A stretch of DNA of 39,698 nucleotides from the NCBI GenBank assembly GCA_015231605.1, contig JADGBG010000003.1, positions 39,145 to 78,842 of the forward strand, written 5' to 3'. Source of the stretch: Alphaproteobacteria bacterium. GTDB lineage: Bacteria > Pseudomonadota > Alphaproteobacteria > Rhodospirillales > Magnetovibrionaceae. This document shows positions 17,741 to 19,553 of the stretch, one piece after another; the first letter of the stretch is position 1, and each line of letters opens with the position of its first letter. A model generated the notes under the pieces. It did not search any database, was not told the DNA's origin, and saw nothing but the letters and a program-made list of their open reading frames with translations. The position numbers and the translations under genes were made by a program.

Positions 17741-17767
17741 GACTCTGAGCGTTCATCGCGTGAAACG

Positions 17768-17796
17768 AAAGGGCGGCCCACGGGCCGCCCTTTTGC
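17768..17796 (+). terminator. intrinsic terminator after cbbA
   Basis: GGGCGGCCC pairs with GGGCCGCCC (17771-17790) around a short loop, followed by TTTT. Confidence 0.88.
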
Positions 17797-17837
17797 CGTC
17801 AAAGGGTGTTGGCATTTTCGGAGGGCGGGAGTAGGCT

Positions 17838-18299
17838 GTGGCGAAAGATCGAAAAAGCTGGGAACTCCCCCCCATGAACGCTGACGACAAAAAGAAAACC
17901 GGGCCGGACCTTGATCTTGGGTCGGGCCTGTCCACCGCCGGTCAGGTGGCGCAAAAAGCCGCCGGGGCCGGCGCGGCCAACGCCGCGCAGGGTGCGGGCA
18001 TGGCCGGCAAGGGCCTTGGTATGGGCATGGGTAAGGGCGCCGTTGGCGCGGCCGGAATGGGCGGCGGAATGGGGGCGGGCATGGGCGCCGCGTCCCACGC
18101 CGGGTTGGCTGCGGGCAGCGGCGCGGGCGGCGGTTTTTTCGCGGGCAAGGCATGCGGTCTGAAATTGGGTTTGGGGTTGGGCGGCTTCGGTGGTCCGTTG
18201 CTGCTGGCGGCGGTGTTCGGGGCAGGGGGATATGCCCTGTACAAGGCGCTGAGCGCGACCCGGCGCCAAGGTTGCCGTGACTTTGGAGATGGTGCATGA
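17838..18299 (+). CDS. glycine-rich membrane protein resembling magnetosome Mms6
   Basis: The product is 153 residues. Residues about 22-100 are Gly/Ala/Met-rich with repeated GMGMGKG, GMGGGMGAGMG and AAGSGAGGG. Next comes GKACGLKLGLGLGGFGGP (103-120) and one hydrophobic helix (LLLAAVFGAGGYALYKAL). The LG-repeat followed by GP and a single helix ending in Y-x-x-K/M closely recalls Mms6 of magnetospirilla. Unlike Mms6, the C-terminus is basic (TRRQG) and lacks the acidic iron-binding tail. The start is GTG 17838 after GGAG; ATG 17874 is the alternative. The stop overlaps the next start (ATGA), so translation is coupled to the ferritin-like DUF2202 protein. Other Gly-rich membrane proteins could mimic this pattern. 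Confidence 0.7.
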   Translation: MAKDRKSWELPPMNADDKKKTGPDLDLGSGLSTAGQVAQKAAGAGAANAAQGAGMAGKGLGMGMGKGAVGAAGMGGGMGAGMGAASHAGLAAGSGAGGGFFAGKACGLKLGLGLGGFGGPLLLAAVFGAGGYALYKALSATRRQGCRDFGDGA

Positions 18300-18949
18300 A
18301 GCCGCAAAACACGCCTCTCGGCATCAATGCCGTGGTCGGTTTCGCCGTCGCCGTGATCCTGCTCGCAAGCGGGGTTTTGGGCGTCGATGCCCTGATGCAT
18401 TCCGGCGCGTCCGTGCCGCACACCATCAGCAAGCAGGAGATCAAGGACCTGCGCTATATGCGCGAGGAAGAAAAGCTGGCGCGCGATGTTTATATGTTCC
18501 TCGCCGACCGCTGGGGTTTGCCCGCGTTCCAGCGCATCGCCCAGGCGGAACAGCGCCACACCGACGCCATCGCCGCGCTGTTGGACCGTTACCACATTCC
18601 CGATCCCGCACGGGACAAAGCGCCGGGGGTGTTCGTGGACGCGGGGCTGAGCGCGCTGTACGCCGAACTGGTGGCCAAGGGCAGCCAATCCTTGGACCAG
18701 GCGTTATGGGTCGGCGGGTTGATCGAGGAGGTGGATATCCACGATCTCGACAAGGCGCTCGCCAACACCCAGTTGCTCGACATTTCCCAGGTCTACCAGC
18801 AAATCCAGGCCGGATCGCGCAATCACCTGCGGGCGTTCGTGTCCAATCTGGAAAACCGGGGCACGCCATATCGGGCGCAAAAGCTCTCCCCCGACCGGGT
18901 GCGGGTGATCGTCACGGGGCCCATGGAACGCGGACCGCTGTTTTTCTGA
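18296..18949 (+). CDS. ferritin-like DUF2202 protein, membrane-anchored
   Basis: The product is 217 residues with an N-terminal hydrophobic anchor or signal (about residues 11-33) and then a helical domain. The hallmark blocks are DLRYMREEEKLARDVYMFLA, FQRIAQAEQRHTDAIAALL, LIEEVDIHDLDK and VYQQIQAGSRNHLRAFV. The E-E-E-K-L-A-R-D-V-Y start and the Q-H and E-x-D-I motifs are those of DUF2202, a family placed in the ferritin-like fold, so a metal centre is plausible. The start overlaps the stop of the Mms6-like gene, and a metal-cation transporter gene follows 16 bases later. Function is not established. Confidence 0.82.
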   Translation: MKPQNTPLGINAVVGFAVAVILLASGVLGVDALMHSGASVPHTISKQEIKDLRYMREEEKLARDVYMFLADRWGLPAFQRIAQAEQRHTDAIAALLDRYHIPDPARDKAPGVFVDAGLSALYAELVAKGSQSLDQALWVGGLIEEVDIHDLDKALANTQLLDISQVYQQIQAGSRNHLRAFVSNLENRGTPYRAQKLSPDRVRVIVTGPMERGPLFF

Positions 18950-18965
18950 TCGGAGAAACCCAGCC

Positions 18966-19553
18966 ATGTGGTGGGAAGCCGTCGGTGGGGCGTTCACCCT
19001 GATCGTCATGGCGGAAATCGGCGATAAAAGCCAACTTGTGTGCATGGCTCTTGCCGCGCGCCACAAACGTCCCCTGCCGGTGTTCGTCGGCGCGGTCGCG
19101 GCGTTTGCGATCTTGAATGCCTTGGCGGCGGCCTTCGGCGCGGCGCTGTCGGCGTGGCTGCCGCAAGCGTGGGTTCTGGGGGCCATGGCTCTGCTGTTTT
19201 TCGCGTTCGGCGTCCATGCCCTGCGCCAGGGCGGCGAAGACGATGACGAAGAGAGCCCGCAAATCAGCGGTCACGGACTGGCGGCCACGGCGTTCTTGAT
19301 GATCTTCCTGGCCGAACTCGGGGACAAGACCCAGGTGTCCGTGGGCGCGCTGGCCGGCTTGTATCCGGCGCTGCCGGTGTGGGTTGGCGGCACCCTGGCT
19401 CTGGCGTTCACTTCGGGCCTCGGCGTGATCGCCGGGAAGGCCCTGTTGAAGCGGATCTCCCTCGATCTGTTGCACCGGATTTCCGGCGGTTTGTTTCTGG
19501 TCCTGGCGGGATTGGCGGTTTGGCGATTGTCCGCCCTCCAGGGGTGGCTCTGA
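18966..19553 (+). CDS. GDT1/UPF0016 (TMEM165) family cation transporter
   Basis: A 195-residue membrane protein with six predicted helices. It contains the family's twin E-x-G-D-K-[ST] motifs: EIGDKSQ (residues 17-23) in the first half and ELGDKTQ in the second half. This internal repeat defines the Mn2+/Ca2+ GDT1 family (MneA/Mnx in bacteria). It probably exports or redistributes Mn2+ or a similar divalent cation. It is cotranscribed with the ferritin-like and Mms6-like genes. Its 3' end lies three bases from the convergent cbbR stop with no evident terminator between. Confidence 0.9.
   Translation: MWWEAVGGAFTLIVMAEIGDKSQLVCMALAARHKRPLPVFVGAVAAFAILNALAAAFGAALSAWLPQAWVLGAMALLFFAFGVHALRQGGEDDDEESPQISGHGLAATAFLMIFLAELGDKTQVSVGALAGLYPALPVWVGGTLALAFTSGLGVIAGKALLKRISLDLLHRISGGLFLVLAGLAVWRLSALQGWL

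Follow-up and report, generated by a model that had tools for sequence, protein, structure and literature searches.

The part played by ferritin-like proteins in magnetite biomineralisation has been argued for decades, and the available parts of the MSR-1 study give a negative answer for Bfr and Dps, since deleting bfr and dps did not impair magnetite formation, while leaving open the role of the uncharacterised ferritin-like proteins of that strain (PMC6529640). For Magnetofaba australis IT-1, ferritin-like ORFs 02816 and 02834 are placed among the magnetosome genes, are described as homologous to a predicted MC-1 ferritin-like protein, and are given a suggested role in iron redox control; the excerpted text of these papers says ferritin or ferritin-like and does not name the family (PMC3934378, PMC5088516). 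Mms6 carries an acidic, mineral-interacting C-terminal tail, according to an excerpt of its source (PMC11332177), and the magnetotaxis islet of AMB-1 is described, in the portion available, as a locus outside the main island that holds mamD-like genes along with further mam-like ones (PMC2818848). The GDT1 family is defined, in the accessible sections, by the motif E-x-G-D-(R/K)-(S/T), and its members studied so far transport Mn(II), some also Ca (PMC7380456). MJ0754 of Methanocaldococcus jannaschii (PDB 3q4n, 3q4o, 3q4q, 3q4r) is a DUF2202 ferritin-like protein with no function assigned, and the terms DUF2202 and MJ0754 occurred in no paper of the open-licence PMC literature searched.

The window analysed here is the whole stretch of 39,698 nucleotides, corresponding to bases 39145-78842 of contig C193 in a genome of 3.18 Mb in 213 contigs. 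It contains a three-gene unit, all on the + strand, with the following features.

17768-17794, + strand: hairpin with a short T-run, 3' of an aldolase gene
17820-17831, + strand: purine-rich stretch GGAGGGCGGGAG, just upstream of the GTG start, read from the sequence
17838-18299, + strand: LG-module protein, GTG start, 153 aa
18144-18254, + strand, codons 103-139: LG repeat, GFGGP and hydrophobic helix, the portion common to Mms6/MamD/MamG
18296-18949, + strand: DUF2202 ferritin-like protein, 217 aa, N-terminal membrane anchor
18326-18403, + strand, codons 11-36 of the DUF2202 protein: hydrophobic helix (anchor), net positive before and net negative after
18440-18916, + strand, codons 49-207: DUF2202 domain, putative metal ligands E59, E85, H88, E144 and H177
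18966-19553, + strand: GDT1 (UPF0016) cation/proton antiporter, 195 aa, two E-x-G-D-K-S/T motifs

The stop of the LG gene overlaps the start of the DUF2202 gene in an ATGA (18296-18299), and a gap of 16 bases (18950-18965) separates the DUF2202 gene from the GDT1 gene; these junctions, the positions of the three ORFs and the twin EGDK-type motifs had been described in the original prediction and were reproduced by a check of the sequence. GGAGGGCGGGAG is likely the ribosome-binding site for the GTG start of the LG protein. The upstream hairpin (fold of 17755-17800, -26.6 kcal/mol, z -3.9, 1 of 200 shuffles equally good) is likely an intrinsic terminator separating the unit from the aldolase gene, and was omitted by a pattern-based terminator scan, which needs 5 T, the tail having 4. 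A promoter search found no sigma-70-like promoter for the unit. The unit lies between what we take to be a fructose-bisphosphate aldolase gene and a convergent LysR-type gene adjoining form II RuBisCO, and the window is, by our own reading of gene names, a sulphur-oxidation and carbon-fixation region.

The LG protein had no Pfam family match; its best NCBIfam match was MamD (10.6 bits, E 0.23, cut-off 100), the Mms6 model (cut-off 200 bits) gave no match at E up to 1, and the protein was rejected as a standard Mms6 or MamD since both NCBIfam models fail. Its relatives, found in the host genome and in three further genomes of the order, are LG proteins encoded on contigs with magnetosome genes. 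A profile built from ten LG proteins of magnetosome-gene contigs, with the 153-aa protein left out, scored that protein at 24.3 bits. Of 40,000 copies shuffled by residue or by dipeptide, the highest reached 14.9, and among 10,656 real frames of at least 60 codons the top ORF lacking an LG module reached 10.2. Mere glycine composition was rejected by these controls as the source of the similarity, and the predicted kinship to Mms6/MamD beyond glycine content was thereby upheld: the 153-aa protein is related to Mms6, MamD and MamG (NF040917, NF040916 and NF040985, in that order) through their LG-repeat/transmembrane module. It shares with them the LG repeat followed by a hydrophobic helix that ends Y-x-x-(Y/F)-K, the G-x-GP turn and the Gly/Ala-rich N-terminal part; it differs from them in that the W of WGP is replaced, a Cys stands in the core, the acidic tail is missing and the gene is outside the magnetosome gene cluster. 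The C-terminal tail has 2 acidic and 3 basic residues, whereas the tails of its relatives are mostly acidic, and, in line with the original prediction, the lack of an acidic tail rules out a standard Mms6. The structure model of the LG protein was of low confidence (mean pLDDT 47.6) and too poor for use, and a PDB sequence search returned one meaningless match (E 0.04).

The core GKACGLKLGLGL-x-GFGGP marks a subfamily that a search with an alignment of two members detected in 3 of 317 order genomes (the host, G033 and G257; two families), all three among the 39 with magnetochrome domains (Fisher p 0.002; two of the three from one genus). The acidic tail is absent in all three members, the orthologues P0004 and G257 being practically tail-less. 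Like the AMB-1 islet, the window unit has an LG-type gene outside the main island; the available part of the islet report mentions no ferritin-like gene there, and the window unit, unlike the islet, has no other mam gene adjacent (PMC2818848).

The original prediction had raised the presence of magnetosome genes in the host genome, and these were found. NCBIfam models matched above cut-off for MamK, M, O, P, A, Q, B and T on contig C148, for MamI and MamH on C64 and for MamZ on C193, while MamR, MamS, MamE and Mms6 copies matched below cut-off, those of MamE and Mms6 being truncated by contig ends. The magnetochrome domain (PF18509) was detected in several ORFs of the host genome and in 0 of 14 control genomes. 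Because Mam models and magnetochrome domains match there, the genome has a magnetotactic gene set and is, by gene content, magnetotactic. The first 14 kb of contig C193 hold MamZ, a two-magnetochrome MamX-like gene, a third CDF gene and FeoB, and the three-gene unit lies about 43 kb from the nearest magnetosome-type genes on the same contig. This third CDF gene (L020:9648-10901), adjacent to feoB, encodes a transporter whose nearest magnetosome model is MamB, below cut-off. Separately, contig C18 (L002, 1736 bases) carries two LG genes, one with an acidic tail, that are truncated by the two contig ends; the repeats probably broke the assembly of the magnetosome cluster.

The second protein scored 181.8 bits against DUF2202 (PF09968; cut-off 22), and its structure model (mean pLDDT 86.4) comprises a helix at residues 11-36 followed by a four-helix domain. 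The four-helix ferritin-like fold had its best match in MJ0754 (3q4r; Z 29.0, rmsd 0.9 over 170 residues), followed by bacterioferritins at Z of about 17; with this fold and the conserved metal-site pattern, the prediction of a ferritin-like protein held. E59, E85, H88, E144 and H177 are conserved in 94 to 96 of 96 relatives and are also kept in MJ0754, which has the same conserved E/H pattern with E145 replaced by D; the window protein differs from MJ0754 in its membrane anchor, its magnetotactic host and the adjacent LG gene. The usual ferritin-like di-metal pattern has an ExxH in the fourth helix. Because the fourth-helix Glu position of this ExxH is Ser in the window protein, its putative di-metal site is not the standard one. 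All five putative ligands are present in 22 of 25 DUF2202 copies from magnetochrome-positive genomes and are missing in 3 of 25, including the G382 copy between mamC and mamX (L162). Second copies without the putative ligands occur at L168:5466-6335 (the L162 gene) and L051:9517-10284, their sister copies holding all five, and in such two-copy genomes one copy may have changed job.

A 19-residue stretch of mean hydropathy at least 2.2 precedes the domain in 22 of 23 scorable magnetochrome-positive copies versus 19 of 90 others, and a lipobox pattern is found in 0 of 23 versus 21 of 90; most copies outside the magnetochrome-positive group thus look secreted or lipid-anchored, not helix-anchored. 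In 19 of the 23 copies, the residues ahead of the hydrophobic stretch carry a more positive charge than the ones behind it. With the positive-inside rule used for orienting the membrane anchor, this charge distribution predicts that the DUF2202 domain faces the periplasm, topologically the magnetosome lumen, where magnetochrome domains also act.

Of 18 magnetochrome-positive carriers in the order and phylum samples, 13 have mam or feoAB genes, among them mamX, mamC and mamD, no more than a few kb from DUF2202, the identities of the mam neighbours being supported by NCBIfam checks. In the order, DUF2202 follows mamX in G124 (L045), lies between mamC and feoAB in G160 (L047, L056; Paramagnetospirillum kuznetsovii LBB-42), and has feoAB on one side and a CDF/mamR pair on the other in G127 (L048), where mamG is more distant. 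Among the phylum-sample genomes, it comes before mamX and mamZ in G374, G417, G445, G469 and G559, stands between mamC and mamX in G382 and beside mamC in G378, G386 and G505, and is ahead of a CZB gene and feoAB in G453. In the remaining 5 of 18 (the window's genome, G154, G033, G257 and G501), no mam gene adjoins it within the stretch seen. DUF2202 also closes a run of mamI, mamE, mamA, mamQ, a mamB/V-type gene and CZB genes in a Thiotrichales MAG (L058). Two genomes of the phylum sample have an LG gene immediately 5' of DUF2202 in the same orientation: in G382 it is MamD (368 bits, cut-off 100), and in G374 the LG protein is truncated by the contig end. Counting the window, the LG-then-DUF2202 order was thus seen three times. 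The ORF orders MamZ-MamX-ferritin-MamC and MamD-ferritin-CDF of IT-1, as given in the excerpts, match G382 (L168, L167), where both ferritin genes are DUF2202, and we infer that G382 is Magnetofaba australis IT-1 or its near kin.

On these grounds we think it somewhat probable that the unit is an auxiliary magnetosome-type module outside the main magnetosome cluster, consisting of an anchored di-metal protein and an LG partner. By sequence, the first gene encodes an LG-repeat membrane protein of the Mms6/MamD/MamG type that has no acidic tail for mineral binding, and the second a ferritin-fold protein with an N-terminal anchor, whose group adjoins mamX, mamC, mamD or feoAB in many magnetotactic bacteria. 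The anchor would leave the ferritin-like domain in the periplasm or, topologically, the magnetosome lumen. The di-metal site of this domain, as a presumed ferroxidase or peroxidase, would oxidise Fe(II) or remove peroxide formed on the way, and DUF2202 would thereby help to control the Fe(II)/Fe(III) ratio, a role that it would share with MamX and other magnetochrome proteins. As a membrane partner, the LG protein would localise or organise the DUF2202 protein and would not be a crystal nucleator. GDT1 would be co-transcribed with the pair as an exporter of manganese (or calcium), which is the least certain part. Several observations weigh against this reading: the distance of about 43 kb to the nearest magnetosome-type gene, the five carriers with no mam neighbour of DUF2202, the copies without putative ligands, the wide occurrence of the family outside magnetotactic organisms and its absence from most magnetochrome-positive genomes, the intact magnetite formation of MSR-1 after deletion of bfr and dps, and one tree that did not unite all magnetotactic rows.

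The distribution of DUF2202 bears on a competing explanation, in which it is a general periplasmic di-metal protein against peroxide or iron stress in microaerophilic sulphur oxidisers, serving the whole cell envelope rather than the magnetosome, its place beside the LG gene being accidental. The family is common among bacteria and archaea that are not magnetotactic (413 relatives found). Many of the 80 named relatives retained come from sulphur bacteria such as Thiothrix, Chromatiaceae and tubeworm symbionts, which favours this explanation, as does the presumed sulphur-oxidation/carbon-fixation setting of the window. Magnetochrome tests covered 59 of the 80 named loci; of the 56 genomes behind them (three already met being set apart), 3 were magnetochrome-positive (Thiotrichales, SAR324 and gammaproteobacterial MAGs), the model matching in 3 of 6 genomes in one batch and giving no match, which alone does not show absence, in the other 50. 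In the SAR324 MAG, two convergent neighbouring DUF2202 genes are both anchored (L101:9803-11307), and no mam genes were matched near this pair. No DUF2202 match was obtained in 32 of 39 magnetochrome-positive order genomes and 40 of 52 in the phylum sample; because most such genomes lack a match, DUF2202 is dispensable, and this too speaks for a general stress protein. Against it, DUF2202 is enriched in magnetochrome-positive genomes, both in the order (11 of 317 genomes; 7 of 39 versus 4 of 278 others; Fisher p 6e-5, kinship uncorrected) and in an even phylum sample (22 of 398; 12 of 52 versus 10 of 346; p 2e-6, kinship uncorrected).

The trees likewise argue against a general stress protein by placing magnetotactic copies on separate branches (95-row and 61-row trees). 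In the 95-row tree (without L054, which had no motif for trimming), the window's copy fell in a clade of ten rows, all of them magnetotactic copies (100/99), the magnetotactic label needing three changes and the magnetotactic rows not all standing together. In a quick 113-row tree with the phylum sample added (without L126_b, L101_b and L054 by choice, and L152 and L162, which lack the motif), 22 magnetotactic rows grouped together (SH-aLRT 97), and a careful tree of 61 chosen rows, without the same five, separated the same magnetotactic rows from the rest at 91/66, which falls short of strong support. Together with the placement of DUF2202 at magnetosome clusters in most carriers, the repeated LG-DUF2202 order, and the secreted or lipid-anchored look of most copies outside the group, this makes the stress-protein explanation rather unlikely.

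The third protein scored 144.6 bits against GDT1 (PF01169; cut-off 27), bears the motifs EIGDKS and ELGDKT, and on this sequence evidence is a genuine GDT1/UPF0016 member and a probable Mn/Ca transporter; a PDB sequence search gave no match. MneA resembles it as a two-repeat GDT1/UPF0016 protein with two E-x-G-D-K-S/T motifs, its gene context, in the part of the report available, being different (PMC7380456). That family members transport Mn(II), according to the same partial source (PMC7380456), and that all three genes share one operon layout would fit a Mn or Ca homeostasis operon, in which Mn(II) leaves through GDT1, Mn is bound or used by the ferritin-like protein, and the LG protein acts as a membrane scaffold. 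However, GDT1 stood beside DUF2202 in 0 of 92 loci (three being second copies of included loci) and in 0 of 12 further loci of the phylum sample, in pairwise searches that could miss distant GDT1; the host genome has one GDT1 copy, 6 of 18 family genomes gave matches, and four good relatives within the family sit in other gene contexts. We regard such an operon as improbable. A single conserved three-gene system was likewise unsupported, the GDT1-DUF2202 adjacency being seen only in the window. The original prediction had proposed one coherent three-part metal system; because the LG-DUF2202 pairing recurs, in two other magnetochrome-positive genomes, and the DUF2202-GDT1 pairing was found nowhere else, it is supported for the first two proteins and not for the third. 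A chance assembly of the three genes (a decayed LG paralogue, DUF2202 and GDT1 stranded by rearrangement, with no joint function) would suit the diverged, tail-less LG protein and a three-gene order seen once only, but is very improbable given the stop-start overlap, the intact frames, the unit's own terminator upstream, the core conserved in three genomes of two families, and the LG-DUF2202 order in two other genomes.

Within the favoured reading, that of an auxiliary magnetosome-type module, the ferritin-like protein is the more important half of the pair, being a little-noticed, recurrent neighbour of magnetosome genes that is almost unstudied. A wider proposal, which we put forward tentatively, is that DUF2202 is an unnamed magnetosome protein, a lumen-facing, anchored, ferroxidase-like protein that works with MamX/magnetochrome and LG proteins in many magnetotactic lineages and is missing from most sampled Magnetospirillum-type genomes, the window holding a transplanted pair with a tail-less LG partner. 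If this were true, the long-suspected ferritin-like component of magnetite formation would exist outside the usual models. DUF2202 genes in clusters beside mamX, mamC, mamD and feoAB offer concrete genes for re-testing the ferritin question in those cultured strains that carry them, and the tail-less LG subfamily separates two suspected Mms6-like jobs, membrane assembly and mineral binding.

Proteins with two CZB domains recur beside DUF2202 or the tail-less LG gene in magnetotactic genomes, and are possibly a further magnetosome-linked metal or redox sensor.

L031:10069-10986: two-CZB-domain protein (PF13682)
L172:6987-7817: two-CZB-domain protein (PF13682)
L058:8370-9254: two-CZB-domain protein (PF13682)
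L176:8241-9068: two-CZB-domain protein (PF13682)
L178:2862-3689: two-CZB-domain protein (PF13682)
L022:8742-9629: two-CZB-domain protein, by sequence similarity

In G033 and G257 the tail-less LG gene adjoins a CZB-domain gene, DUF2202 is not adjacent, and an imelysin (Peptidase_M75) gene is near (L031:9726-15744, with L022:3963-9985). The same regions hold DUF1513-like, haem-type and multicopper-type genes, which we take to be an iron or copper uptake-like set.
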